From: Amycolatopsis sp. cg9
GTDB taxonomy: Bacteria; Actinomycetota; Actinomycetes; Mycobacteriales; Pseudonocardiaceae
Direction of reading: 5' to 3'
DNA length: 64,000 nucleotides
NCBI RefSeq assembly: GCF_041346945.1
Contig: NZ_CP166850.1
Coordinates: 868,001 to 932,000 of the forward strand
Shown: positions 10,652 to 55,984 of the stretch, piece by piece
Numbering within the stretch: position 1 is the stretch's first letter
Layout of the letters: each line of letters opens with the position of its first letter
Program-made: the position numbers and the translations under genes
The notes under the pieces: generated by a model
The model's database searches: none
The model's input: only the letters and a program-made list of their open reading frames with translations
Told to the model about the DNA's origin: nothing

Positions 10652-10676
10652 CGCAGCCTCCCAACGTTCGGACGAT

Positions 10677-10719
10677 ACGGTACCGTCCCGACGTTAGAGT
10701 AGACAGGACGGTACCGTCC
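10677..10719. promoter_or_regulatory. Pair of TetR operators in a divergent promoter region
   Basis: ACGGTACCGT (10677-10686) and GGACGGTACCGTCC (10706-10719) are perfect palindromes with the same core, centred 31 bp apart (three helical turns). They fill the gap between the SnoaL-like operon and the TetR gene. Two repressor dimers on one DNA face could control both directions. Confidence 0.75.
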
Positions 10720-10742
10720 CGTCCACCCGCTAGACTGCCGGC

Positions 10743-11336
10743 ATGGCACGCACCCCGACCGGCGCCGCGGTCCTCCAGCCCGAGGTCACGCAGGCCATCA
10801 GCGAAGCCGTCATGTGGGAACTCGCCGAACAGGGCTATGGGCGGCTGTCGATGGAAGCGGTGGCGAAACGCGCCGGTGTCAGCAAGAGCGCGCTGTACCG
10901 GCGGTGGGCGTCGAAGGAGCACATGATCGCGTCCGTGGTGACGGAGTTCAGCGTGACCCGCGCGCCGGAGGTCGACACCGGCTCCCTTCGCGGAGACCTG
11001 CGCGAAACGATGCAGGCGCTGATCGACTGGCTCACGCACCCGCTGTTCTCGCGGATCCTGCCGGACCTGGTCGCGGAGGACGCCCGCGCCCCGGAGCACA
11101 GCCGCGGCTTGCGCGAGGCCATCGGCGGCCCGCGCCGCGAGGTCGGCGAGGCGATGCTGCGCCGCGCGATCACCCGCGGCGAGCTCCCCGCGGACCTGGA
11201 CATGGAACTGGCGCTCGACGCACTGGCGGCGCCGATCTACTGGCGCCTGGTGGTCCGCCTGGCCCCGGCGGAACCGGACTACGTGGAGCGCCTGGTGGCG
11301 TACGCCCTGCGCGCACTGGGCGCGCAGGGCGGGTGA
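10743..11336 (+). CDS. TetR/AcrR family transcriptional regulator
   Basis: A 197-residue repressor. The helix-turn-helix is SMEAVAKRAGVSKSALYRR followed by WASKEHMIASVV (about residues 36-66), with a TetR_C-type ligand domain containing the REAIGGPRREVGEAMLRRAI segment. The gene is divergent from the SnoaL-NmrA-hydrolase operon. Two identical-core palindromes in the intergenic gap make it the likely repressor of that operon and of itself. Its stop lies 1 bp from the convergent murA stop. Confidence 0.9.
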   Translation: MARTPTGAAVLQPEVTQAISEAVMWELAEQGYGRLSMEAVAKRAGVSKSALYRRWASKEHMIASVVTEFSVTRAPEVDTGSLRGDLRETMQALIDWLTHPLFSRILPDLVAEDARAPEHSRGLREAIGGPRREVGEAMLRRAITRGELPADLDMELALDALAAPIYWRLVVRLAPAEPDYVERLVAYALRALGAQGG

Positions 11337-11337
11337 C

Positions 11338-12612
11338 TCACGCCCGCTCGGGCTCGCCGGCGACGCGCTTGATGTTCGCGCCCAGGCGGTTCAGGTTCTC
11401 CACGAAGTGCGGGTAGCCGCGGTCGATGTGGAAGACGTCCCAGACCTCGGTGACGCCGTCCGCGCACAGGCCGGCCAGCACCAGGCCCGCGCCCGCGCGG
11501 ATGTCGGAGGCCCAGACCGGGGCGCTCGACAGCTGGGGGACGCCGCGGACCACCGCGTGGTGGCCGTCCGTGCGGGCGTCGCCCGAGAGGCGGACCATCT
11601 CCTCGATGAAGCGGAAGCGCGCCTCGTAGACGTTCTCCGTGATCATCGACGTGCCCTCGGACACCGCCGACAGCGCCACCGCGAAGGGCTGCAGGTCGGT
11701 CGCGAAGCCGGGGTACGGCAGCGTCACCCAGTCGACCGCCTTCGGGCGCTCCGGCTGCACCACGCGGAAGCCCTTGTCGCCGAACGTCTCGACCTCGGCG
11801 CCGGCCAGCTCCAGCTTGTTCAGGACCAGGTCGAGGTGGTGCGGGTTGACGCCGCGGACGGTGATGTCGCCGCGGGTCATCGAGGCGGCGAACGCCCAGG
11901 TCGCGCCGACGATCCGGTCGCCGATCACGCTGTGCTCGGTCGGGTGCAGCTTCTCGACGCCGTGGACGGTGAGCGTCGACGTTCCGGCGCCCTCGATCTT
12001 CGCGCCCATCTCGATGAGCATCGTGCAGATGTCGGCGATCTCGGGCTCGCGCGCGCAGTTGTCGATGACCGTGGTGCCCTCGGCCAGCACGGCCGCCATC
12101 AGGATGTTCTCGGTCGCGCCGACGCTCGGGAAGTCCAGCCAGATCTGCGCGCCGACCAGCGTCTCGGCCTTCGCGACGACGCAGCCGTGCTCGATCGTGC
12201 TCGTCGCGCCCAGCTTGCGCAGGCCGTTCTGGTGCATGTCCAGCGGGCGCGAGCCGATCGCGTCGCCGCCCGGCAGCGCCACCACGGCCTGCTTCAGCCG
12301 GCCGACCAGGGGCCCCAGCACGCAGACGGACGCGCGCAGCTTGCCCATCGCGGCCGAGTCCGCGCGGTGCGACAGCTCGGCCGGCGTCGTGATGGTGGCG
12401 GTGTCGCCTTCGATGACGACCTCGCAGCCGACGCTCCGCAGCACGTCGCCCATCAGCGGGACGTCGAGGATCTGCGGGCAGTTCGTGATGGTCGTGGTGC
12501 CCTCCGCGAGGAGGGCGGCGGCCATCAGCTTCAGCACGCTGTTCTTGGCGCCGACCACGTCGACCTCGCCGACCAGCCGGGCTCCGCCATGCACGTCGAA
12601 GTGCTCGCTCAT
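11338..12612 (-). CDS. murA: UDP-N-acetylglucosamine 1-carboxyvinyltransferase
   Basis: A 424-residue EPT-fold enzyme that transfers enolpyruvate from PEP to UDP-GlcNAc, the first committed step of peptidoglycan synthesis. Conserved Lys23 is in [17 protein letters not shown]. The loop that carries the catalytic Cys115 in E. coli reads [15 protein letters not shown], with Asp at residue 117, exactly as in M. tuberculosis MurA, a substitution known to give fosfomycin resistance. [10 protein letters not shown] aligns with the mycobacterial N-terminus, so ATG 12612 is taken. A TTG at 12621 has a better placed GAGAGG and would add MAA. Divergent from the adenosyltransferase gene. Confidence 0.95.
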
Positions 12613-37238: not shown

Positions 37239-37374
37239 GGTGTCCTCTCTCGTTGGCTCCGGGTCCCCAGTCGTTCTCGCGGGGTGAACCGGCGCCGGAC
37301 TTCAGCGGGTAATTCTGCCAGACGGGCAGACGCTCACTGGAACGCACCCCGCTGACCAGGTATTCCGAACGCGC

Positions 37375-44563: not shown

Positions 44564-46219
44564 TTACATCCGTTCCGGAGCGGAGACACCGAGGAGGGCG
44601 AGGCCGTTGGCCAGCACCTGGCGGGCGGCCTCGCACAGCGCGAGCCGGGCGTACGTCAGAGGGGTCGCCTCTTCGTCGCCCATGGGCAGCACGCGGCCCA
44701 CGGTGTAGAACTTGTGGTAGGCGCCCGCGAGTTCTTCGAGGTAGCGCGCGATCCGGTGCGGCTCCCGCATTTCGGCGGCGCGGCGCACGGTTTCCGGGAA
44801 TTCGCCGATGGTGCGGATCAGGTCGCCCTCGGCGGGCAGCGTGAGCAGTCCGAAGTCGACGTCCGAAGTGGACTTGATGCCGAGGTCGGCGGCGTTGCGC
44901 TGCAGGGACGCCAGCCGCGCGTGCGCGTACTGGACGTAGTAGACGGGGTTGTCGTTGGAGTGCTTGCGCAGCAGGTCCAGGTCGACGTCCAAAGTGGAGT
45001 CCACCGAGTACCGGATCAGCTCGTAGCGGGCCGGGTCGACGCCGACGGCCTCGACGAGGTCCTCCATGGTGATCACGGTGCCCGCGCGCTTCGACATCCG
45101 CACCGGCTTGCCGTCGCTGACCAGGTTGACCATCTGGCCGATCAGCACCTCGACCGTGGCCGGGTCGTCGCCGAACGCCGCGGCCGCCGCCTTGAGCCGG
45201 GCGATGTAGCCGTGGTGGTCCGCGCCGAGCATGTAGATGCACAGGTCGAAGCCGCGGTTGCGCTTGTCCTTGAAGTAGGCCAGGTCACCGGCGATGTAGG
45301 CCGGGTTGCCGTCCTGCTTGATGACGACGCGGTCCTTGTCGTCGCCGTACTCCGACGACTTCAGCCACCACGCGCCCTCGTCGAAGTAGAGGTTCCCGGA
45401 GTCCTTCAGCTGCTGGACGGCGGCGTCGACCGCGCCGGACTCGTGCAGCGAGTTCTCGTGGAAGTAGACGTCGAAGTCGGTGCCGAACTCGTGCAGGCTG
45501 GACTTGATCTCGCCGAACATCAGCTCGATGCCGATCCGGCGGAACGTCTCGTGGCGCTGCTCCTCCGGCAGCGACAGCGCGCTCGGCTCGGCCTTGATGA
45601 CCTCGGCGGCGATGTCGTTGATGTAGCCGCCCGCGTAGCCGTCCTCCGGCGCGGGCTCGCCCTTCGCGGCGGCGATCAGGGACCGGACGAACCGGTCGAT
45701 CTGGGCACCGGCGTCGTTGAAGTAGTACTCGCGGGTGACCTCGCCGCCCTGCGCGCCCAGCACCCGGCCCAGCGCGTCGCCGACCGCGGCCCAGCGGGTG
45801 CCGCCGAGGTGGATCGGGCCGGTCGGGTTCGCCGAGACGAACTCGAGGTTGATCTTCGTGCCGGCCAGCGCGTCCCCGCGCCCGAACGCGGCACCGGCGT
45901 CGAGCACCTGGCGCACGATGTCGCCCTGCGCGGCCGCGGCGAGCCGGAAGTTGAGGAAGCCGGGGCCTGCCACCTCGGCCGAGGCGACGCCGTCGTCCGC
46001 CGAGACCGCCTCGGCCAGCGCCTCCGCGAAGTCGCGGGGCTTCAGCCCGGCCTTCTTGGCCACCTGGAGGGCGATGTTCGTCGCGTAATCGCCGTGTTCG
46101 GGGTTGCGCGGGCGTTCGATGGTCACCTGCTCCGGCAGCACGGCGTCGTCGATGCCGCGTGCGGCGAGCACCTGCACGGCGGAGCTGCGGACCAGGTCGG
46201 CGAGAGCGGCGGGAGTCAC
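44564..46219 (-). CDS. argS: Arginyl-tRNA synthetase
   Basis: 551 residues. The class Ia HIGH signature is [19 protein letters not shown] and the KMSKS equivalent is [16 protein letters not shown]. The N-terminal tRNA D-loop domain and the C-terminal anticodon-binding helices ([17 protein letters not shown]) are both present. GTG 46219 is chosen because a TAGAAT box (46232-46227) precedes it by seven bases, as in leaderless genes. It starts the argS-lysA-hom-thrC-thrB operon. Confidence 0.96.
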
Positions 46220-46226
46220 TCGTCGA

Positions 46227-46232
46227 ATTCTA
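46227..46232 (-). promoter_or_regulatory. -10 box of the argS operon
   Basis: TAGAAT on the minus strand lies seven bases upstream of GTG 46219, giving a leaderless argS mRNA. It would drive argS-lysA-hom-thrC-thrB. Confidence 0.55.
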
Positions 46233-46379
46233 GGTGTGCCCTGGTCGGGCGCTTTCATCGGTCTCGGCCACGTCACGGCGGGCATCCACGTGAGGCGTTA
46301 ACCGTGATCAGACGCGTGGTCTCTACACTGGCCCGGGCGGGAATCCGTCCGCAGCCACCAGAGGGAGAACGCGGGAGCC

Positions 46380-47225
46380 ATGGCGAACGGGACAACTCGG
46401 AAAAAGGGGTCGGCGGTGAAGGCGGCCCGCGGTTCCGTGGTGAGCAAGAAGGGCACGCCCTGGGGCACGATCATCGCCGTCGTGGCCATCGTCGCACTGG
46501 CCGCCGCCGTGATCACCTACTACATGGTGGCGTCCGCGCCGAAGCGCGAGCAGTCCGACCGCGAGGCGGCGGCCGCGTCCTTCGCGCCGACGGCGTCCGA
46601 CCCGGACCCCTCCAAGCGCATCCCCGGCGTGGTGACCGCGACCTACACCGGCAGCGTGCACGTGCTCCCGACCGAGCGCGTCGCCTACGACAAGACCCCG
46701 CCGTTCGGCGGCCCGCACGACGGCTACTGGGCCACCTGCACCGGCACGGTGTACCCGAACGCCGTCCGCACCGAGAACATGGTGCACGGCCTCGAGCACG
46801 GCGCCGTCTGGATCGCCTACAACCCGCAGCAGATCACCGGTGACGCGCTGAACCTGCTCAAGGTCCGCGTCGAGGGCAAGCCGTACACCATGATGTCGCC
46901 GTACCCGGGCCTCGACAAGCCGATCTCGCTGCAGTCGTGGGGCCACCAGCTGAAGGTGGACAAGGCCGACGACGCGCGCATCGACGAGTTCATCGCGGCG
47001 CTGCGGAGCAACCCGAACGGCGTCTACCCCGAGGTCGGCGCCTCCTGCGACGCGCTCGGCGCGGGCCAGTTCGACCCGGACAACCCGCCCCCGTTCGACC
47101 CGTCGAAGCCGGGCCCGGACGCCAAGCCGATGGACTACAAGGGCACGCCGAACGCCCAGGCCGACCAGAACGGCGGCATGAGCCAGCAGCCGTCCGCACC
47201 CGCGTCGGGCACGCCCACCAAGTGA
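46380..47225 (+). CDS. DUF3105 membrane-anchored protein
   Basis: 281 residues: a basic N-terminus, one transmembrane helix (GTIIAVVAIVALAAAVITYYM, about residues 28-48) and an extracytoplasmic domain. The DUF3105 core contains PPFGGPHDGYWATCTGTVY and NMVHGLEHGAVWIAY, with two His residues and two Cys (the other in VGASCDALG) that could form a disulfide or metal site. The tail is Pro-rich and disordered. It is divergent from argS and overlaps the DUF305 gene by 4 bp (GTGA). Function is unknown; this pair often occurs together in actinobacteria. Confidence 0.85.
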   Translation: MANGTTRKKGSAVKAARGSVVSKKGTPWGTIIAVVAIVALAAAVITYYMVASAPKREQSDREAAAASFAPTASDPDPSKRIPGVVTATYTGSVHVLPTERVAYDKTPPFGGPHDGYWATCTGTVYPNAVRTENMVHGLEHGAVWIAYNPQQITGDALNLLKVRVEGKPYTMMSPYPGLDKPISLQSWGHQLKVDKADDARIDEFIAALRSNPNGVYPEVGASCDALGAGQFDPDNPPPFDPSKPGPDAKPMDYKGTPNAQADQNGGMSQQPSAPASGTPTK

Positions 47226-47914
47226 GTTCCGAAGAGGCTCAGGAGCAGCCCACCTGGTCGCGCTGGGTGATCATCGGCGGAACGCTCCTCGCGGTCCTGC
47301 TGATCGGCGCGACGGCGGGCATGTTCCTGACCCGCACGATCGACGACGCCCCGGCTGCCACCCCGGCAGCCGGGTCCGTCGAGGTCGGCTTCGCCCAGGA
47401 CATGTCGACGCACCACCTCCAGGCCGTGACGATGGCCGGCTGGGCTCGCGACCACTCGACGGACCCGGAGATCCGCCAGCTGGCGTTCGACATCGAGCGC
47501 ACCCAGCTGGAGCAGGTCGGCCGCATGAAGGGCTGGCTCATGCTGTGGGACCAGCCCGAGCAGCCCATCGGCGCCCCGATGAAGTGGATGACGGAGCCGA
47601 TGCAGGGCCACGACGGCATGGCGATGGGCACGTCCTCGGTCAACCCGGGCGCGGGTCCCCTGATGCCGGGCATGGCCACCGAGGCCGAGCTGGCCAAGCT
47701 GCGCTCGCTGTCGGGCAAGCAGCTGGACGTGTACTTCCTCCAGCTGATGCTCCGCCACCACCAGGGCGGCACGACGATGGCCCAGTACGCGGCGGCCCAT
47801 TCGAACCTGACGGCGTTGCAGGCTCTGGTGCGGAGCATTTTGACTTCGCAGGGGGCCGAGATGGACCAGATGAAGCTGATGCTCTCCGCCCGGGGCGCGC
47901 AGCCGCTGCCCTGA
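47222..47914 (+). CDS. DUF305 membrane-anchored protein
   Basis: 230 residues with an N-terminal transmembrane helix (WVIIGGTLLAVLLIGATAGM) and a four-helix DUF305 domain. The paired His motifs DMSTHHLQAVTMAGWA and MLRHHQGGTTMAQYA, with Met-rich stretches between them (MQGHDGMAMG), are typical and suggest a copper- or other metal-binding role outside the membrane. It is translationally coupled to DUF3105. The NLR-like gene on the other strand ends 19 bp downstream. Confidence 0.87.
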   Translation: MSSEEAQEQPTWSRWVIIGGTLLAVLLIGATAGMFLTRTIDDAPAATPAAGSVEVGFAQDMSTHHLQAVTMAGWARDHSTDPEIRQLAFDIERTQLEQVGRMKGWLMLWDQPEQPIGAPMKWMTEPMQGHDGMAMGTSSVNPGAGPLMPGMATEAELAKLRSLSGKQLDVYFLQLMLRHHQGGTTMAQYAAAHSNLTALQALVRSILTSQGAEMDQMKLMLSARGAQPLP

Positions 47915-47933
47915 GCGACGCCCGGAAGCCGAG

Positions 47934-50540
47934 TCAGGTATCGGGGTGCTCGTCGCCGACGACCCGGTTGCGGCGGGCGAGGGTGTCCTCGTCCAGCTCA
48001 CGCGCCCGCTCGTGCTCACCCAACCTCGTGAGGCCGACGACGAGGTTGTGGGCGGAGTTGAGGGTATCGGGGTGATCCTCACCGAGAACCCGCTTCCGCC
48101 GCGCCAAGGTGTCCTCGTCCAGCTCACGCGCCCGCTGGTACTCGCCCAGGTTGAGGAAGCAGATGGCGAGGTTGCTGGCTGAGACGAGGGTGTCGGGGTG
48201 ATCCTCACCGAGAACCCGCTTCCGCCGCGCCAAGGTGTCCTCGTCCAGCTCACGCGCCCGCTGATACTCGCCCAGGTTGGTGAAGCAGGTGGCGAGGTTG
48301 TTGGCGGCGAGGAGGGTGTCGGGGTGATCCTCACCGAGAACCCGCTTCCGCCGCGTGAAGGTGTCCTCGTTCAGCTCGCGAGCTCGCTGATGGTCACCCA
48401 GCCCGCCGAGGTCGATGGCGAGGCTGAGGGCGGAGTTGAGGGTGTCGGGGTGGTCCTCACCGAGAACCCGCTTCCGTCGCGCGAGAGTGTCCTCGTCCAG
48501 CTCACGCGCGCGCTCGTACTCACCCAAGTCACTGAGGTCGAGGGCGAGGCCGAGGGCGGAGTTGAGGGTATCGGGGTGATCCTCACCGAGAACCCGCTTC
48601 CGCCGCGCGAGAGTGTCCTCGTCCAGCTCACGCGCCCGCTCGTACTCACCCACCCTCCTCAGGCCGGCGGCGAGGTTGTTGGCCGCCACGAGGGTGCTGC
48701 GGTGGTCGTCGCCGTGTGCGTCCTTGTAGAGCGTGTGTGCCCGTTCGCGCAGGGGCAGCCCGGCGCGCGCGTTGCCGCGGGTTTGGAGGTATATCCCGGC
48801 GTAGGTGAGCAAGGCACCGATTTCCGCTGTCACTGTTCGTATCGCGCGCGCCGGGTCGCAAACGGCGAGCACGTGCGGCAGGAGGGACTGCCACGGCGGC
48901 CAGCTCGCCGGGTTGTTCAAGGGGTTGTCGGGCAACCCCGCACGCAGCAGGCGAACTGCGATGACGGGCCAGGCGACGCTCTGGTCGTCTTCGGCGGTGT
49001 TGCCATGGCTGCTTCGAGCCCGCAGCAGCGCGGCGGGAACGCGGTGGAGCTGGATGGTGGTCGTGGTGACCTCGGCCAGGCCGCGGTTGCGCAGGGCGGC
49101 GGTGAGTTCGGCGAACGCCAGCGGATCCCGCGCGGCGGCTCCGGCGTCGCCGGCCTGGTGGGTGAGCAGGGTGAGGGGCACCGGTTCCGGCGCCAGCCAC
49201 GCCACCAGGGTCAGCGTGTTCAGCGCCGCGGGGTTCTCGTGAGCGAGCTGGTCGAACGACATCGTCCAGGCCGCGGCCAGCGAGACGGGATAGCTGCTGC
49301 CGTCGTCGTGGTACGCCAAGAGGTCGTGGGCGCGCTGGGCGTGCAGGTCGAGGTAGGTGTCGGCGGTCCAGCCGGTCGACGCCAGCAGGCGTGAAGCTTG
49401 ATCGACGGCCAAGGGCAGATCCCCCAGGGCGCCGGCGATGCGGTCGGCGTCGGGTTCGGTGAGCTGGTCACAGCGGCTTTGCAGCAGCTGGACGGACTCG
49501 GACCGGGTGAATTCCCGCACCGGCAACGCGGCACCGATGTCGCCCCAGTTCGGATTGCGGGAGGTGACGACGACGTGCCCGTCGCCGCCGGGCAGCAGCG
49601 GCCGCAGGGCGGCGGGGTCTTCGGCGTTGTCGAACACCAGCAGCCACCGCTCACGGGACTGCAGCGCCCCGCGCAACCGGGCCAGCGCGACCTTCGGCGG
49701 ATCCTGCCCGGTGGCCAGGTCCAAGGCCTGGGCGAGGTCGGCGAGGTGACCGGCGATGAGGCCGGGGTCTTCGGAGGGGATCCACCAGGCGACGTCGTAG
49801 TCGTCGGCGTGGCGGTGGGCGTATTCGATCGCGGTGGTGCTCTTGCCGACGCCGCCCATCCCGTTGAGCGCCTGCACCACGGCCGGCTGCCCCGAGCACA
49901 ACGCCGCGCGCAGCCCGGTCAGCAGCTCGTCGCGACCGGTGAACGCAACCGTGCGAGCGGGGACGTTCGAGATCCGGCCCGCGGGCATCGATGTCTGCCG
50001 AGGCCGCACAGTCCGATTCAGCGCCAGCAGCAGCTTGGTTTCCAGCTCACCGGGTGAGGAAACCTTGGTCACAGTCAGGCCGCTGTCGTGCAGCCGCTGC
50101 CGGAACGCCTCCTGCCGGGGGCCGTACCGCAGGTCCCGGAACAACGAGGCCGGCCCGTCGGTGTCCTCGGTGAGCACGAACACCAGCCGTTCCATGCCGG
50201 CCTCGGTGGCGAGCTGGAACTCCTGCTCACAGTACGAAACGTCCGGGCGATCGCGCACCGGCATGCCGTACCGGAACCCGGCGATCAGCACGTAGATGTC
50301 GGCCTCGGCCAGCATCTCCCGGTCCAGCTGCTCCGGCGCCGCGTCCCGGGCGGTGAAGTCGTCCATGTCCACGACCGCGTCCCCGGCCTTGGCCACCGCC
50401 GCTTTCGCCGCCGCCACGAACGAGCGCGGCTTCGGCAGCTCACCCAGCTCGCTCGTGTGGCTGAGGAACACCCGCCGCGCCGGCGGCTTCCTCGCGTGCC
50501 CTTCGGCAGACTCCCCGACCGCCAACACCCGCTCCCTCAC
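47934..50540 (-). CDS. NLR-like STAND protein: DUF4062, NB-ARC, TPR (copy A)
   Basis: 868 residues. Residues about 22-125 form a DUF4062 (TIR-like) domain: RRVFLSHTSELGELP and DREMLAEADIYVLIAGFRYG. The NB-ARC ATPase follows, with P-loop GMGGVGKST (227-235), Walker B LLVFDNAED (300-308) and GDLPLA (373-378), then a winged-helix-like part. From about 600 to the end are six 42-residue TPR units built on RARELDEDTLARRKRVLGED, the last cut short. STAND proteins are signal-activated switches; antiphage, stress or developmental roles are possible. GTG 50540 is used, though a TTG five codons later has a better placed GAGGGAG. Confidence 0.85.
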   Translation of the reverse strand: MRERVLAVGESAEGHARKPPARRVFLSHTSELGELPKPRSFVAAAKAAVAKAGDAVVDMDDFTARDAAPEQLDREMLAEADIYVLIAGFRYGMPVRDRPDVSYCEQEFQLATEAGMERLVFVLTEDTDGPASLFRDLRYGPRQEAFRQRLHDSGLTVTKVSSPGELETKLLLALNRTVRPRQTSMPAGRISNVPARTVAFTGRDELLTGLRAALCSGQPAVVQALNGMGGVGKSTTAIEYAHRHADDYDVAWWIPSEDPGLIAGHLADLAQALDLATGQDPPKVALARLRGALQSRERWLLVFDNAEDPAALRPLLPGGDGHVVVTSRNPNWGDIGAALPVREFTRSESVQLLQSRCDQLTEPDADRIAGALGDLPLAVDQASRLLASTGWTADTYLDLHAQRAHDLLAYHDDGSSYPVSLAAAWTMSFDQLAHENPAALNTLTLVAWLAPEPVPLTLLTHQAGDAGAAARDPLAFAELTAALRNRGLAEVTTTTIQLHRVPAALLRARSSHGNTAEDDQSVAWPVIAVRLLRAGLPDNPLNNPASWPPWQSLLPHVLAVCDPARAIRTVTAEIGALLTYAGIYLQTRGNARAGLPLRERAHTLYKDAHGDDHRSTLVAANNLAAGLRRVGEYERARELDEDTLARRKRVLGEDHPDTLNSALGLALDLSDLGEYERARELDEDTLARRKRVLGEDHPDTLNSALSLAIDLGGLGDHQRARELNEDTFTRRKRVLGEDHPDTLLAANNLATCFTNLGEYQRARELDEDTLARRKRVLGEDHPDTLVSASNLAICFLNLGEYQRARELDEDTLARRKRVLGEDHPDTLNSAHNLVVGLTRLGEHERARELDEDTLARRNRVVGDEHPDT
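47945..48690 (-). repeat. 126-bp tandem repeats encoding TPR units, copy A
   Basis: Six copies of a 126-bp unit occur at exact spacing; the word GTGTCCTCGT (plus strand) recurs at 47983, 48109, 48235, 48361, 48487 and 48613. Units are highly similar at DNA level, including third positions, so they expanded or homogenised recently. Each unit is one 42-residue TPR. Confidence 0.85.
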
Positions 50541-50605
50541 GCCGCCGACACTCTGGAACAGTCTCCACGACCCAGGCGGGCGTTACGGGACGACGAAGCC
50601 CGCTA
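50541..50605 (-). repeat. Duplicated upstream block of NLR copy A
   Basis: The 65 bp before the copy A start read, on the minus strand, almost the same as 53081-53141 before copy B, including TGGAGACTGTTCCAGAGTG immediately upstream and GTCCCGTAACGCCCGC further out. The duplication therefore included the promoter or leader. Confidence 0.8.
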
Positions 50606-51523
50606 CCAGGAAAGTTCCTGGCACCGCCGAGCGCACTGCGGCGCCTCCACCTGCAACGTCGCGTGCTCGATCGCGTACCGCGACGACAGCAGGTTCTGCG
50701 CCTCCGTCAGCACGTCCGATTGCTGTGCGGGCGGCGCCAGCGTCAGGTGCGCCGAAGCGACCTCCATGCCCGACGTGAGCGTCCAGACGTGCAGGTCGTG
50801 CACGTCCGCCACGCCCGGGAGCGCGGCCAGCTCGGCGTTGATCGCGCCGACGTCGACGCCCTGCGGGGCGTGCTGGAAGAGGATGCGCAGCGCCCGGCGG
50901 GCCAGCACCCACGTGCGGGGCAGGACGAACAGGCCGATCGCCACGCCGATGATCGGGTCGGCGTAGCGCCAGCCCGTCAGCAACGTCAGCGCGCCGCTGA
51001 TCAGGACGCCGACCGAGCCGATCAGGTCCGCGAGCACCTCGAGGTACGCGCCGCGGACGTTGAGGCTCTCCTTCGCCCCCGAGCGCAGCACCGAGAACGA
51101 CACGATGTTGGCCGCCAGGCCGGCCGCCGCGGCGAGGAAGACCGGCAGGCCGGGGACCGCGGGCGGGTCGCTGATGCGGCCGATGGCCTCGACGAGGACG
51201 TAGCCCGCGACGCCGAAGAGCAGGATCGCGTTGCCGAGCGCCGCCAGCACCTCCGCGCGGTAGAGGCCGAAGGTGCGGCTGACCGTGGGGCCGCTGCGGC
51301 GCGCCAGGATGATCGCGGCCAGGGCCATGCCGACGCCGAGGACGTCGGTGAACATGTGCGCGGCGTCGGAGATCAGGGCCAGTGAACCGGTCGCGAAGCC
51401 GACGACGAACTCGAGGACCATGAAGCCGGCGCCGATGGCCAGGGCGATGGTCAGGCTCCGCACGTACCGGCCCGACGCGCTCGCCGGCGCGATCGCGTGC
51501 CCGTGGCCGTGTCCCTGCCCCAT
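50603..51523 (-). CDS. Cation diffusion facilitator family transporter
   Basis: 306 residues: a His-rich start (GQGHGHGHA), six transmembrane spans and a cytoplasmic C-terminal domain (VHDLHVWTLTSGMEVASAHL). The first half of the metal site is SDAAHMFTDVLGVGMAL. The second half reads YLEVLADLIGSVGV, with Glu where Zn transporters have His and the following Asp kept. It probably exports Zn, Cd or Co. It has a promoter containing an ArsR/SmtB-like dyad, but no such regulator gene is adjacent. It lies between the two NLR genes. Confidence 0.9.
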   Translation of the reverse strand: MGQGHGHGHAIAPASASGRYVRSLTIALAIGAGFMVLEFVVGFATGSLALISDAAHMFTDVLGVGMALAAIILARRSGPTVSRTFGLYRAEVLAALGNAILLFGVAGYVLVEAIGRISDPPAVPGLPVFLAAAAGLAANIVSFSVLRSGAKESLNVRGAYLEVLADLIGSVGVLISGALTLLTGWRYADPIIGVAIGLFVLPRTWVLARRALRILFQHAPQGVDVGAINAELAALPGVADVHDLHVWTLTSGMEVASAHLTLAPPAQQSDVLTEAQNLLSSRYAIEHATLQVEAPQCARRCQELSW

Positions 51524-51555
51524 ACCGCCTCCGTTCCCGGTTCACCGTCGCCGCA

Positions 51556-51584
51556 AACATATAGTGAGATGCGCATATGTGCAA
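51556..51584 (-). promoter_or_regulatory. CDF promoter with ArsR/SmtB-like operator
   Basis: On the minus strand a -35 TTGCAC (51584-51579) and a -10 TATGTT (51561-51556) are 17 bp apart. The inverted repeat ACATAT...ATATGT (51557-51580) covers the spacer and touches both boxes. This AT-rich dyad is the kind bound by ArsR/SmtB metal sensors. It stands 33 bp before the CDF ATG. Confidence 0.65.
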
Positions 51585-51642
51585 CAGAGGGCAGCCTAAG
51601 TTCACCCACTCGGAAAGCTACCCCGGACGGCGGTGGCGACCA

Positions 51643-51674
51643 ATCCACCAGGCGGGGTTTCCCGCCTGGTGGAT
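51643..51674 (-). terminator. Hairpin terminator after the epoxide hydrolase gene
   Basis: Two perfect 14-bp arms (51643-51656 and 51661-51674, e.g. ATCCACCAGGCGGG) enclose the loop GTTT. It begins 3 bp after the hydrolase stop on the minus strand. There is no U-run, as is common in actinomycetes. It also insulates the CDF promoter downstream. Confidence 0.8.
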
Positions 51675-51677
51675 CCG

Positions 51678-52790
51678 TCACGCTTCGCGAACCAGCCGGA
51701 AGAACCCGCGAACCTGCTCGACGAACAACTGCGGCTGCTCGAGCGCGGCGAAGTGCCCGCCGACGGGCAGCTCCTCGAACCACCGCAGGTCGGTGTAGCG
51801 CTGCTCGGCCTGCCGCCGCGACGGCCGCACGATCTCCTTGGGGAACACCGAAACCCCGGCCGGCACGTCCACCGTGGACAGATCGCGATCGTTGTTCTCC
51901 CAGTACATCCGCGCCGAGGAGGCCGCCGTCGCGGTGAACCAGTAGACGGAGATGTCGTCGAGGATCTTCTGCCGGTCGACGGCTTCCTCGGGGTGCCCCT
52001 TGTGGTCGGTCCAGGCCCAGAACTTCTCGACGATCCAGGCGGCCTGCCCGGCGGGCGAGTCGGTGAGCCCGTACCCGAGCGTCTGCGGCCGCGTGCCCTG
52101 CTCGGCGGAGTACCCGCTCCCGGTCCGCCGGAACTCCTGCAGGTCGGCGAGCGCCCGCTCCTCGGCGGCCGTCAGATCGCCCTGGTCCATCCGCACGGGC
52201 GCGAAGTTGACGTGCACCCCGGCCACCCGCTCCGCCGCGACCTGCGCGAGCGAGTTGGTGATGGCGGCACCCCAGTCACCACCCTGGGCGCCGTAGCGGT
52301 CGTAGCCGAGCGACACCATCAGCGCGTCCCACAGCGCGGCGACCCGCGGGATCTTCAACGCGGGCTTGTCGCTCCACCCGAACCCGGGCAGCGACGGCAC
52401 GACGACGTGGAACGCATCGGCCGGATCACCCCCGTACGCCCCGGGATCGGTGAGCGGCCCGATGACGTCGAGGAACTCCAGCACCGACCCGGGCCACCCG
52501 TGCGTGAGCACGAGCGGCAGCGCGTCCGGTTGTTCGGACTCGACGTGCAGGTAGTGCACCCCGACCCCGTCGACGGTCGCCCGGAACTGCGGGAAGGCGT
52601 TCAGCCGCCGCGCGAACCCGAAGTCGTACTCCTCACCCCAGTCCCGGCAGAGCTCCTTGACGTAGGCCAGCGGCACCCCCTGCGACCAATCGCCCACGGT
52701 CTCCGCCTCGGGCCACCGAGTCCGCCGCAACCGCTCCCGCAGGTCGGCGACATCACTCTCATCGAGAGCTACCTGGAACGGCTCAGCCAT
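51678..52790 (-). CDS. Epoxide hydrolase, EHN-domain alpha/beta hydrolase
   Basis: 370 residues. The N-terminal EHN segment (DVADLRERLRRTRWPEAE, then LCRDWGEEYDF) precedes an alpha/beta hydrolase core. The oxyanion motif is LTHGWPGSVLEFLDV, the nucleophile Asp is in YGAQGGDWGAAI, the lid tyrosine region is VYWFTATAASSARMYW and the catalytic His is in VGGHFAALEQP. It hydrolyses epoxides to diols; the physiological substrate is unknown. ATG 52790 has AGGAG just upstream. It lies inside the interval bounded by the two NLR genes. Confidence 0.9.
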   Translation of the reverse strand: MAEPFQVALDESDVADLRERLRRTRWPEAETVGDWSQGVPLAYVKELCRDWGEEYDFGFARRLNAFPQFRATVDGVGVHYLHVESEQPDALPLVLTHGWPGSVLEFLDVIGPLTDPGAYGGDPADAFHVVVPSLPGFGWSDKPALKIPRVAALWDALMVSLGYDRYGAQGGDWGAAITNSLAQVAAERVAGVHVNFAPVRMDQGDLTAAEERALADLQEFRRTGSGYSAEQGTRPQTLGYGLTDSPAGQAAWIVEKFWAWTDHKGHPEEAVDRQKILDDISVYWFTATAASSARMYWENNDRDLSTVDVPAGVSVFPKEIVRPSRRQAEQRYTDLRWFEELPVGGHFAALEQPQLFVEQVRGFFRLVREA

Positions 52791-52939
52791 CACGGCTCCT
52801 TCGGGTGGGGTTCCCACGCTAGCGACGCCGCGCGGAGCCGATCAACTTCATAGCGTTGACCTGGGAAAACGCGGGTGGGGGAACCTGCGCGCGAGGGGTA
52901 CGGGGGATGCGCTAAGCTTTCGGAGTCGCCCAGCGATGG

Positions 52940-53012
52940 GCCCTCGTAGCTCAGGGGATAGAGCACTGCCCTCCGGAGGCAGGTGTCGCAGGTTCGAATC
53001 CTGCCGAGGGCA
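52940..53012 (+). tRNA. tRNA-Arg (anticodon CCG)
   Basis: A complete cloverleaf: acceptor GCCCTCG pairs with CGAGGGC, the D arm is GCTCAGGGGATAGAGC, the anticodon stem CTGCC/GGCAG encloses CTCCGGA with anticodon CCG at 52973-52975, and the T arm contains GGTTCGAATCC. The discriminator base is A53012; the genome continues CCCC, so the final A of CCA is added enzymatically. It reads CGG codons. In mycobacteria the equivalent tRNA lies close to argS; here 6.7 kb separates them. NLR copy B starts 130 bp downstream. Confidence 0.97.
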
Positions 53013-53080
53013 CCCCTTTATCAGCGGAAACCCGCTTATCACCAATTCACATCCGGACACCGTCGTGTCCGACTCGCTCA

Positions 53081-53141
53081 CTTCGTCGTCGTCCCGTAAC
53101 GCCCGCGTGAATCGTGGAGACTGTTCCAGAGTGTCGGCGGC
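53081..53141 (+). repeat. Duplicated upstream block of NLR copy B
   Basis: The 61 bp before copy B match the block before copy A (50541-50605 in reverse), with a 3-bp indel in a GTC run and a few substitutions near 53107-53112. The last 30 bp before the start are identical. Confidence 0.8.
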
Positions 53142-55877
53142 GTGAGGGAGCGGGTGTTGGCGGTCGGTGAATCTGCGGAACAGCGCACGCGAAAGCCACC
53201 GGCCCGCCGCGTGTTCCTCAGTCACACCAGCGAGCTGGGCGAGCTGCCGAAGCCACGGTCGTTCGTCGCCGCGGCGAAGGACGCGGTGGCCGCCGCCGGG
53301 GATGCGGTGGTGGACATGTCCTCCTTCACCGCCCGGGACGCGACGCCGGAGCAGCTGGACCGGGAGATGCTGGCCGACGCCGACGTCTACGTGCTGATCG
53401 CCGGATTCCGGTACGGCATGCCGGTTCGCGGCCGCCCGGAGGTCTCCTACACCGAGCAGGAGTTCCAGATCGCCACCGACGCCGGCATGGAACGGCTGGT
53501 GTTCATCCTCGCCGAAGACACCGAAGGACCACCGGCGCTGATCAGGGACCTGCAGTACGGACCCCGGCAGGAAGCGTTCCGGCAACGGCTGCACGACAGC
53601 GGACTCGCCATCACCAAGGTGTCCTCACCCGGCCAGTTGGAAGCGAAGCTGCAGCTGGCCCTGACCAAACTCGACCGCCCGCAGCAGAAGTCGATGCCGG
53701 CGGGCCGGATCTCCAACATCCCCGCCCGCAGCGTCACCTTCACCGGCCGCGACGAGCTGCTGACCGGGCTGCGGGCGGCGTTGTGTTCAGGACGGCCTGC
53801 GGTGGTGCAGGCGCTCAACGGGATGGGCGGCGTCGGCAAGACCACCACCGCGATCGAGTACGCCCACCGGCACGCCGAGGACTACGACCTTGCCTGGTGG
53901 GTCCCCTCGGAAGACCCGACCCTGGTAGCCGGCCACCTCGCCGCCCTCGCCCAGGCGATGACCCTGGCCACCGGCCAAGACCCACCGGACGTCGCGCTGG
54001 CGCGGCTGCGCGGCGCGCTGCAATCGCGCGAGCGGTGGCTGCTGGTGTTCGACAACGCCGAAGACCCCGCCGCTCTGCGCCCGTTGCTGCCTGGTGGCGA
54101 CGGGCACGTCATCATCACCTCCCGCGACCCCGACTGGGACGACATCGGCGCCGCGCTACCGGTGCGGGAGTTCACCCGCGCCGAATCGGTCAAACTCCTG
54201 CAATCCCGCTGTCCCCGGCTCACCGAACTCGACGCCGACCGCATCGCCGAGGCCCTCGGCGACCTGCCCTTGGCCGTCGACCAAGCCGCACGACTTCTTG
54301 CGACGACCGGCTGGACGGCGGATACCTACCTCGATCTGCACACCCAGCGCGCCCACGACCTCCTGGCCCGCCACGAGAAGGGCAGCAGCTACCCCGTCTC
54401 ACTGGCCGCAGCCTGGACAGTGTCGTTCGACCAGCTCGCCCGCGAAAACCCCGCCGCGCTCAACACCCTCACCCTCGTGGCGTGGCTGGCTCCCGAACCG
54501 GTACCGCTCACCCTGCTCACCCACCAAACGGGCGACGCCGGAGTAGCCGCACGAGACCCGCTGGCCTTCGCTGAAATCACCACCGCCCTGCGCAGCCGCG
54601 GCCTGGCCGAGGTCACCACCACGACCATCCAGCTCCACCGCGTCCCCGCCGCACTACTGCGAGCCCACACCCGCCACGACGTCGTGGCCGACGCCCAAGA
54701 CGCCACCTGGCCCGCTACCGCAGTCCGGCTGCTGCACGCCGGTCTACCCGACTCTCCGTGGAACAACCCGGCCAGCTGGCCCCAGTGGCAGGCACTCCTG
54801 CCGCATCTGCTCACTGTCTGCGAACCGGAACGCGTGCCGCTCCGACTGACCGCAGAGATCAGATACCTGCTCAACTACGCCGGGCTCTACCTCCAGACTC
54901 GCGGCGATACCGGCGCCGCACTGCCTCTGCACGAACGCGCGTACAAACTCGTCAAAGACGCACACGGCGACGACCACCTCGACACCCTCGACTCCGCCAA
55001 CAACCTCGCCATGGCCCTCAGCATGCTGAACGAACAGCAGCGGGCCCGCGAGCTGAACGAGGACACCCTCGCCCGCTACAAACGCGTCCGGGGAGAAGAC
55101 CATCCCGACACCCTCACCTCCGCCCACAACCTCGCCGCCAAACTCAGCTTGCTGGGCGAACACGAGCGATCCCGCGAGCTGAACGAGGACACCCTCGCCC
55201 GCCGCAAGCAGATCCTCGGCGACGATCACCCCGACACCCTCAACTCCGCCAACAACCTCGCCATCGAACTCGGCACACTCGGCGAACACCAGCGGGCCCG
55301 CGAGCTGAACGAGGACACCCTCGCCCGCTACAAACGCGTCCGGGGAGAAGACCATCCCGACACCCTCACCTCCGCCTACAACCTCGCCGCCAAACTCAGC
55401 TTGCTGGGCGAACAACAGCAGGCCCTCGAGCTGAACGAGGACACCTTCGCGCGGCGGAAGCAAATCCTCGGCGACGACCACCCCGACACCCTCAACTCCG
55501 CCAACAACCTCGCCGCCGACCTCAGCGAGCTAGGCGAACACCAGCGATCCCGCGAGCTGAACGAGGACACCCTCACCCGCCGCAAGCAGATCCTCGGCGA
55601 CAACCACCCCCACACCCTCAACTCCGCCCACAACCTCGCCATCGAACTCGGCACACTCGGCGAACACCAGCAGGCCCGCGAGCTGAACGAGGACACCCTC
55701 GCCCGCCGCAAGCGGGTCCTCGGCGAAGACCACCCGCACACCCTCAACTCCGCCAACAACCTCGCCGCCAACCTCAACCAGCTGGGCGACCACCGGCGAG
55801 CTCGCGAGCTGGACAAGGACACCCTCGCCCGCAGCGAACGCATCCTCGGCGACAACGACCCCGGCACCCTCGCCTGA
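53142..55877 (+). CDS. NLR-like STAND protein: DUF4062, NB-ARC, TPR (copy B)
   Basis: 911 residues, a close paralogue of copy A with collinear domains: DUF4062 (REMLADADVYVLIAGFRYG), P-loop GMGGVGKTT (227-235), LLVFDNAED, GDLPLAVDQA, then an extended TPR array of about seven 42-residue units. Unit consensus differs from copy A in RELNEDTLARRKQILGDD. The C-terminus ends in a degenerate unit. GTG 53142 parallels copy A; a TTG at 53157 is six bases after GAGGGAG and may be the true start. Differences concentrate in the TPR part, which suggests the two proteins sense different partners with the same output domain. Confidence 0.85.
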   Translation: MRERVLAVGESAEQRTRKPPARRVFLSHTSELGELPKPRSFVAAAKDAVAAAGDAVVDMSSFTARDATPEQLDREMLADADVYVLIAGFRYGMPVRGRPEVSYTEQEFQIATDAGMERLVFILAEDTEGPPALIRDLQYGPRQEAFRQRLHDSGLAITKVSSPGQLEAKLQLALTKLDRPQQKSMPAGRISNIPARSVTFTGRDELLTGLRAALCSGRPAVVQALNGMGGVGKTTTAIEYAHRHAEDYDLAWWVPSEDPTLVAGHLAALAQAMTLATGQDPPDVALARLRGALQSRERWLLVFDNAEDPAALRPLLPGGDGHVIITSRDPDWDDIGAALPVREFTRAESVKLLQSRCPRLTELDADRIAEALGDLPLAVDQAARLLATTGWTADTYLDLHTQRAHDLLARHEKGSSYPVSLAAAWTVSFDQLARENPAALNTLTLVAWLAPEPVPLTLLTHQTGDAGVAARDPLAFAEITTALRSRGLAEVTTTTIQLHRVPAALLRAHTRHDVVADAQDATWPATAVRLLHAGLPDSPWNNPASWPQWQALLPHLLTVCEPERVPLRLTAEIRYLLNYAGLYLQTRGDTGAALPLHERAYKLVKDAHGDDHLDTLDSANNLAMALSMLNEQQRARELNEDTLARYKRVRGEDHPDTLTSAHNLAAKLSLLGEHERSRELNEDTLARRKQILGDDHPDTLNSANNLAIELGTLGEHQRARELNEDTLARYKRVRGEDHPDTLTSAYNLAAKLSLLGEQQQALELNEDTFARRKQILGDDHPDTLNSANNLAADLSELGEHQRSRELNEDTLTRRKQILGDNHPHTLNSAHNLAIELGTLGEHQQARELNEDTLARRKRVLGEDHPHTLNSANNLAANLNQLGDHRRARELDKDTLARSERILGDNDPGTLA
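55035..55870 (+). repeat. 126-bp tandem repeats encoding TPR units, copy B
   Basis: Seven units with 126-bp period, each containing GAGCTGAACGAGGACACC or a close variant, start near 55050. The first and third units are almost base-identical over more than 100 bp (both encode RYKRVRGEDHPDTLTSA), so a 252-bp pair of units was duplicated recently. Confidence 0.85.
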
Positions 55878-55948
55878 TCCCATCCCCTCCGCTCCGAGCT
55901 GGGTGACTCCTGCGGGGCAATCCAGGCACTCGCCCAGAGCAGACGTGA

Positions 55949-55984
55949 GAAAGCGCTTTCAACCACCCACTGAAAGCGTTTTCA
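55949..55984. promoter_or_regulatory. Pair of LacI-family type operators
   Basis: GAAAGCGCTTTC (55949-55960) is a perfect palindrome with the central CG typical of LacI-family sites. TGAAAGCGTTTTCA (55971-55984) is a second copy with one mismatch pair. The centres are 23 bp apart. They lie 125-160 bp before a secreted polysaccharide lyase gene, so sugar-responsive repression is likely. No LacI gene is in the window. Confidence 0.7.

Follow-up and report, generated by a model that had tools for sequence, protein, structure and literature searches.

DUF4062-headed NLR proteins of Amycolatopsis: a patchily distributed gene family with a predicted NADase head and a variable TPR array

The locus and the domain architecture of the two proteins

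The 64,000-nucleotide stretch of DNA from Amycolatopsis sp. cg9 analyzed here (contig NZ_CP166850.1, positions 868,001 to 932,000; referred to as the window, with positions counted from its first base) contains two genes for related NLR-like proteins, NLR-A and NLR-B. They are transcribed divergently, with a start-to-start distance of 2.6 kb (Table 1). A reading made earlier from the window without database searches (the sequence-only reading) had described a divergent DUF4062/NB-ARC/TPR pair of 868 and 911 residues, with genes for a metal exporter, an epoxide hydrolase and tRNA-Arg between them, and the open reading frames (ORFs) and the enclosed genes are as it described them. Profile scans place the exporter in the CDF family and identify the N terminus of the hydrolase as epoxide-hydrolase type. 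The size given for the two proteins (0.87-0.91-kDa scale) is in error, as proteins of such length are ~95-100 kDa.

Both proteins have the NLR/STAND layout: an effector head, a nucleoside triphosphatase with P-loop and Walker B motifs, and C-terminal repeats. The head matches the Pfam family DUF4062 (PF13271; residues 23-111) with 35.8 bits in NLR-A and 38.7 bits in NLR-B (cut-off 24.7). The Pfam NB-ARC match is slightly below its cut-off (21.3 and 22.4 versus 23.5 bits), and the AlphaFold model of NLR-A shows an Apaf-1-like core. The sequence-only reading had called the P-loop and Walker B motifs intact; in an alignment of 57 sequences, NLR-A and NLR-B among them, every column of the two motifs is either invariant or conserved to at least 90%. 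The C-terminal array is matched by TPR_10 (239 bits in NLR-A and 256 bits in NLR-B), with 42-residue units of the kinesin-light-chain type. It also matches the Podospora kinesin-light-chain-like structure 4y6c, and weak Pfam matches to TPR_NPHP3 are found in the NLR proteins.

The overall identity between NLR-A and NLR-B is 78%. It is 82% in DUF4062, 87% in NB-ARC, 75% in the next segment and 69% in the TPR part, and the strongest divergence is thus located where the sequence-only reading had placed it. The two proteins are collinear, but NLR-B has one extra TPR unit (7 versus 6, by our own unit profile). At the DNA level the genes form an inverted repeat, whose main arms measure 1016, 1053 and 579 nt and have identities of 85, 75 and 86%, respectively.

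Table 1. Features of the locus. Positions refer to the window, except in the last row, where they are given as locus:position.
Feature	Position	Strand	Basis
NLR-A, 868 aa, DUF4062 - NB-ARC - TPR array	47934..50540	-	ORF and profile matches
NLR-B, 911 aa, DUF4062 - NB-ARC - TPR array	53142..55877	+	ORF and profile matches
NLR-A TIR-like DUF4062 domain, residues 20-180; E107 codon 50220-50222	50001..50483	-	Pfam, AF2 model, KpSwz alignment
NLR-A NB-ARC switch, residues about 193-430	49251..49964	-	
NLR-A TPR array, 6 units of 42 aa (126 bp)	47940..48695	-	
NLR-B TIR-like DUF4062 domain, residues 20-180 (by alignment to NLR-A); E107 codon 53460-53462	53199..53681	+	
NLR-B NB-ARC switch, residues about 193-430	53718..54431	+	
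NLR-B TPR array, 7 units of 42 aa	54984..55865	+	
NLR-A upstream element, GTAAC-N15-GGAGACTGTT, putative promoter	50557..50586	-	
NLR-B upstream element, putative promoter	53096..53125	+	
Insert of NLR-A alone with its upstream element; the flanking DUF305 and CDF genes are adjacent in relatives	47915..50604	.	
NLR-B insert, from the tRNA-Arg 3' end to the flank common with relatives (right edge approximate, 55945-55971)	53018..55945	.	
CDF cation exporter, outside the NLR system	50603..51523	-	same place in 40/40 relatives examined
Epoxide-hydrolase-like alpha/beta hydrolase, outside the NLR system	51678..52817	-	same place in 40/40 relatives examined
tRNA-Arg(CCG), insertion landmark for the NLR-B slot	52940..53014	+	
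DUF305 protein, left edge of the NLR-A slot	46937..47914	+	
Small proteins with a C-terminal RHIM-like motif, adjoining NLRs	L079:7207-7545, L118:7585-7929, L078:8292-8678		

A third DUF4062-NB-ARC-TPR gene is present in the same genome at 4.85 Mb (L064:7599-10274), directly 3' of tRNA-Val(TAC). Matches were found in 12 of the 80 genomes of a genus survey, where carrier and copy counts are kept apart from two 31% relatives (in G008 and G013). G008 holds such a relative only, and the family therefore has 11 carriers among the 80 genomes, with 25 copies (1-6 per genome). In a phylum-wide sample of 198 genomes, no match was found at 1e-20 outside the genome of the window.

The DUF4062 head and the TPR array

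DUF4062 is described as a TIR-like NAD+ hydrolase (NADase) in the antiphage system Swarozyc, in the accessible part of a May 2026 preprint (PMC13174449), which has overtaken the statement of the sequence-only reading that this domain is little studied. The DUF4062 domain of the NLRs can be aligned with that of KpSwz. In this alignment, the engineered active-site alanine of KpSwz (taken as E97A, with the numbering inferred) is probably opposite Glu107 (E107) of the NLRs. This residue is invariant in 121 domain rows from the 120 closest proteins, and it is likely the catalytic Glu, retained in both NLR-A and NLR-B. A residue of the catalytic pocket, which the sequence-only reading had singled out as a point to check, is therefore present. 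The model of the NLR-A head has a TIR/DNPH1-like fold by AlphaFold, Foldseek and VIA, with modest TM-scores. NLR-A and NLR-B would thus probably hydrolyze NAD+.

The TPR arrays were compared in a set of 129 units from 23 genus proteins, to which the G029 copy (with no TPR units found) and G013 do not contribute. The arrays contain 3-11 units, at a constant spacing of 42 residues. The nearest unit is located in the same array for 98 of the 129 units, while 2000 label shuffles gave a mean of 5 and a maximum of 17, and the units have therefore undergone concerted evolution. Moreover, the number of units differs between orthologs: NLR-B has 7 and its sister in G025 has 6, and the two copies at tRNA-Val have 5 and 6. 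The G029 copy (L077) has the head and the NB-ARC domain, with no detectable TPR units, and is perhaps truncated.

TPR positions 2, 5, 9, 12 and 13 are named as the most variable and as groove-facing in the accessible part of PMC1261162. They correspond to positions 3, 6, 10, 13 and 14 of the units here, a shift by one that was taken from our own unit-type alignment after the per-position table had been seen; an earlier groove set of six positions had likewise been picked with the data already seen. The ratio of nonsynonymous to synonymous differences (pN/pS, uncorrected for multiple hits) is 1.47 at the five groove positions (1.26-1.80 in a bootstrap over arrays) and 0.42 at the other positions (0.37-0.49). 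Positions 33 and 34 of PMC1261162 (here 34 and 35) show no such rise (0.39). Near-identical repeats, changing unit number and a variable groove occur together in fungal NLRs, according to the accessible part of PMC4986451.

Insertion slots, upstream element and origin of the pair

The CDF-hydrolase-tRNA segment is matched, wholly or partly, in 80 of the 80 genus genomes. Of the 79 relatives, 40 were compared in detail, for the most part those with the best matches to this segment, and the order of CDF gene and then hydrolase gene is kept in all 40. The enclosed genes are therefore core genes, and it is the NLRs that vary at this locus. The slot between the DUF305 and CDF genes holds a DUF4062-NLR in four of them (G025, G042, G048 and G019). 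In G008, it holds an NB-ARC-TPR frame with no DUF4062 match (L118:5909-7573), beside a small RHIM-tipped gene. The DUF305 and CDF genes are at most 30 bp apart (between match ends) in 11 of the 40 relatives; the remaining ones have longer gaps, and other genes are present in some of these. The slot of G017, a relative with 94% identity to the window in the CDF-hydrolase segment, contains only a 399-residue frame, transporter-like by eye. NLRs flank the segment on both sides in two of the 40 relatives, G048 and G025, the latter with ~10 kb of other genes between the tRNA and the NLR.

The insert in the left slot consists of one gene and its upstream element. In the right slot, the borders of the insert are 286 bp apart in G051, and 2.7 kb of other sequence is located between them in G042. 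The third copy is placed between the end of tRNA-Val and the next gene, and it is absent from this place in 8/8 relatives fetched, with both strands compared. The borders of this empty site are less than 100 bp apart in G017, G048, G031 and G041, and 590-985 bp apart in G042, G019, G040 and G051. G025, which is outside these eight, has an orthologous copy at the tRNA-Val place. The pair is thus missing from some relatives. The sequence-only reading had proposed to look for variation in presence between strains, and strong variation is found here between species. The two NLR genes are best seen as members of a repertoire in two neighboring insertion slots, and not as a functional two-gene system.

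The homology between copies at different places begins sharply at a GTAAC box, 15 bases 5' of GGAGACT (by eye). The exact element GTAAC-N15-GGAGACTNTT has 16 matches in 15 chosen genomes (10 carriers and 5 non-carriers), and the reversed control has none. All 16 matches are just 5' of copies of the family. Of the 24 copies that these genomes contain, 16 are thus preceded by the element, including all three in the genome of the window; the exact element was not found in four carriers (G023, G029, G044 and G066). The element looks like a private promoter of the family. The upstream spacing is 63 bp to the CDF gene for NLR-A and 127 bp to the tRNA for NLR-B.

Five of 24 copies start less than 300 bp 3' of a tRNA gene and in the same direction, at four sites (Arg, Val, Ala and Thr), with the distance measured to residue 21 or 22. 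By a rough count this adjacency is above chance, as there are 50 tRNA matches in the genome of the window. In G048 (L076, tRNA-Arg at 10672-10746), the 3' end of tRNA-Arg recurs as an exact 45-bp copy downstream of two tandem NLRs, so that att-like repeats bracket this stretch. In G019 (L080, tRNA-Pro at 11661-11735), an exact 40-bp repeat of the tRNA-Pro end is located 1.8 kb downstream, just before an NLR. These repeats look like attachment-site repeats, and tRNA attachment sites may be involved in these two genomes. On the other hand, near NLR-B and near the tRNA-Val copy the tRNA 3' end recurs over no more than 14 bp, and no sign of site-specific integration of these copies was seen, with no search made for an integrase. 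A 26-bp inverted fragment of tRNA-Arg (96%) is found in G025 (L095, reverse-complemented, 1457-1482), beyond the 3' end of the NLR on the CDF side, and may reflect the arrival of that copy.

The sequence-only reading had proposed that the pair arose by duplication, followed by sensor divergence. In the DNA tree (the trees leave aside the G029 copy and G013), the closest partner of NLR-B is not NLR-A but the copy that G025 has on this side of tRNA-Arg (97/96), and a clade of NLR-A and NLR-B is present in 1% of the bootstrap trees. In the protein tree, NLR-A, NLR-B and three G025 copies form one clade (98/97), and the branching order within this clade is not settled. The approximately unbiased (AU) test with NLR-A and NLR-B forced together gives p 0.064, which is not a formal rejection. 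Duplication of the pair in place is therefore disfavored by the DNA tree and left undecided by the protein tree. The identity of NLR-B to its G025 sister is 85.5% over the first 580 codons, and that of the CDF-hydrolase segment between these genomes is 94%. A single clade of the left-slot copies of G000, G025, G042 and G048 is rejected (AU p 2.5e-5). This slot has therefore been refilled or converted over time, with different lineages occupying it in different species.

Some of the relatives carry RHIM-like features. A GVQIGDGN-type motif is found ahead of DUF4062 in NLRs of G019 (three), G023 and G066 (by eye); among four motif-bearing NLRs scanned, three have a RHIM match below the cut-off and one has no match. 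Small neighboring proteins (Table 1) match RHIM above the cut-off in G019 and G008 (21.8 versus 20) and slightly under it in G023 (19.4), and the NLRs of L079 and L078 have a similar RHIM-like motif before DUF4062. These relatives fit the BASS/BELL amyloid pairs of PMC7889193, as far as its accessible part describes them. Inspection by eye showed no RHIM-like motif at the N terminus of either NLR-A or NLR-B, and there is no room 5' of either gene for a RHIM-tipped effector gene; a genome-wide search for such a protein was not made.

Two other features of the window are an arginyl-tRNA synthetase gene (44564-46285), located near the tRNA-Arg locus and beside a gene for a pyridoxal-phosphate-dependent decarboxylase, and an ordinary L31-Actinobacteria ribosomal protein leader (37255-37298).

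Proposed mechanism and alternative explanations

We consider it rather probable that NLR-A and NLR-B are NLR receptors that deplete NAD+ upon sensing phage or other non-self. The proposal builds on what the comparisons establish, namely the domain make-up, the predicted fold, the conserved Glu, the patchy presence and absence of single genes, and the concerted evolution of the TPR units. For the trigger, the oligomerization, the NADase activity and the cell death we infer the following course. The TPR array, with a concave groove that varies between copies, would bind an invader-derived or otherwise foreign protein. Binding would open the Apaf-1-like NB-ARC switch and allow oligomerization with ATP. 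The DUF4062 heads would then be brought together and hydrolyze NAD+, and the loss of NAD+ would lead to cell death or growth arrest, that is, abortive infection.

Several observations weigh against this proposal. Foldseek gave only modest TM-scores for the head (0.45-0.52, relative to query length, in the top TIR rows). In the accessible part of PMC13174449, the human DUF4062-NACHT proteins NWD1, NWD2 and NPHP3 are without NADase activity, and TEP1 is the sole active NADase among the four human DUF4062 proteins tested. As these three are inactive, fold and architecture do not guarantee NADase activity. The variation in the groove is also seen in other proteins: five other TPR arrays of the genome have a pooled pN/pS of 1.24 versus 0.52, with two of the five below 1. 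As a result, the groove excess is not private to the DUF4062-NLR family, and selection on the groove as proof of an immune function is weakened by this control.

The genomic setting is a further point on this side. A rough PADLOC scan covered 118 of 172 ORFs picked around the copies, at 19 of 20 loci; outside it were the NLRs, the genes of the shared slot, L074 as a whole and some of the ORFs at L072, L076 and L079. Among the matches listed (25 of 52 families) there are 1-2 members per family. These are mostly models of one PD-T4-6 type with one member each; mad2 has two members and mad6 has one. No PADLOC match was found in the six neighbors in the window or in NLR-A, and NLR-B has one weak CARF match. 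The clustering with defense genes that the sequence-only reading had proposed to look for is thus not clearly seen in this rough scan. Its suggestion of a defensive role gains, on the other hand, from the NADase precedent for DUF4062, the likely catalytic Glu, the presence that varies between species, and the variable sensor units.

An explanation that we regard as unlikely, while ranking it first among the alternatives, keeps the same machine and changes the trigger, to strain recognition (kin recognition or allorecognition) or developmental cell death, as with fungal NLRs at cell fusion. Amycolatopsis is filamentous, which would suit such a role, but we know of no cell-fusion biology in these bacteria comparable to that of fungi. 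The lack of a clear defense-island setting around the copies in the rough scan also agrees with this explanation. The TPR signature of near-identical units, copy-number change and a variable groove matches that of fungal NLRs (PMC4986451), and kin recognition has been raised for bacterial STAND sensors (PMC10907252). The characterized bacterial DUF4062 proteins that we found act against phage, however (PMC13174449, accessible parts in all three cases).

It is less probable still that the DUF4062 head has another chemistry, as a DNPH1-like nucleotide N-glycosidase or a producer of a signal from NAD+, or that it is a mere scaffold. The top VIA match of the head is DNPH1, tied with a TIR domain (13.4 versus 13.2), the top Foldseek row is a CMP N-glycosidase, and three of the four human proteins mentioned above are inactive on NAD+. 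The sequence of the head is related, however, to that of KpSwz, for which NADase activity has been shown, and the catalytic position appears to be retained.

The name by which NCBI refers to the relatives points to a part of the FxSxx-COOH peptide system, a TPR protein that responds to a radical-SAM-modified peptide. The match to NF040586 (FxSxx_TPR) is strong, with 606 bits in NLR-A and 716 bits in NLR-B (cut-off 300). It begins at residue 193, however, and covers the NB-ARC and TPR parts only. These are the parts in common with the FxSxx-COOH TPR protein, and the DUF4062 head is different (context in the accessible part of PMC7159879). None of three FxsB radical SAM matches in the genome is above the cut-off (25-27 bits versus 370), and no FxSxx component was found among the other six window proteins scanned. 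We regard this explanation as very improbable, and the NF040586 name is possibly an over-annotation of DUF4062-NLRs in a genome with no FxsB above the cut-off. Finally, AfsR-type transcription regulators can practically be dismissed: NLR-B has matches in its NB-ARC part to NF053617 (AfsR) and to AfsR chains of known structure, but the NF053617 score, 57.7 bits, is far under the cut-off of 1430, and Pfam finds no DNA-binding domain.

The proposed NAD+-depleting receptors resemble several known systems in part. Like the NLRs, plant TIR-NLRs (RPP1 and Roq1) and the bacterial antiviral STAND proteins Avs and bNACHT have an effector head, a STAND ATPase and a C-terminal sensor. Plant NLRs have leucine-rich-repeat sensors. 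The heads of the plant and Avs/bNACHT proteins are canonical TIR or other domains. In human TEP1, NWD1, NWD2 and NPHP3, DUF4062 stands beside a STAND ATPase, at the place of an NLR effector head, with NACHT instead of NB-ARC. Swarozyc (KpSwz; PDB 10wc/11cq/11cv) shares the TIR-like DUF4062 head, the catalytic Glu position, which is apparently kept, and the patchy distribution. KpSwz, on the other hand, has a short auxiliary helix-turn-helix (HTH)/winged domain that binds the phage portal (PMC13174449, accessible part). A C-terminal domain of this type was not found in the NLRs, where NB-ARC and TPR follow DUF4062, and no defense-island setting was seen for the NLR copies in the rough scan. Fungal NLRs with TPR, WD or ANK repeats likewise have near-identical repeats, copy-number change and variable predicted binding positions, but their heads are HeLo-like, PNP_UDP, HET and others, and not DUF4062, in the accessible part of PMC4986451. 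No title on DUF4062-NB-ARC-TPR proteins was found in the literature searched, with most subscription papers and supplements outside its coverage. The DUF4062 head and the NLR layout are each already known, and the DUF4062-headed bacterial NLRs with fungal-like evolution of the sensor are a variant of them, with the function proposed here.

A broader picture is offered more tentatively. The copies may constitute a family of single-gene NADase receptors with one private promoter, which would move gene by gene between tRNA ends and gene junctions. The sensor would be renewed by shuffling of near-identical TPR units, with the groove under diversifying selection. In some relatives, an N-terminal RHIM-like amyloid motif and a partner with a RHIM tip would have been added, so that a single receptor would have two outputs. 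Such a family would be for bacteria what the NLR repertoires are for fungi.

The DUF4062 domain, with its predicted NADase activity, is here placed on a full NLR chassis in bacteria, arranged much as in human TEP1, NWD1 and NPHP3. The genus offers several natural copies as well as natural empty sites. It can therefore be tested in Amycolatopsis what bacterial TPR-NLRs sense, and whether receptor repeats diversify in a bacterium in the fungal style.

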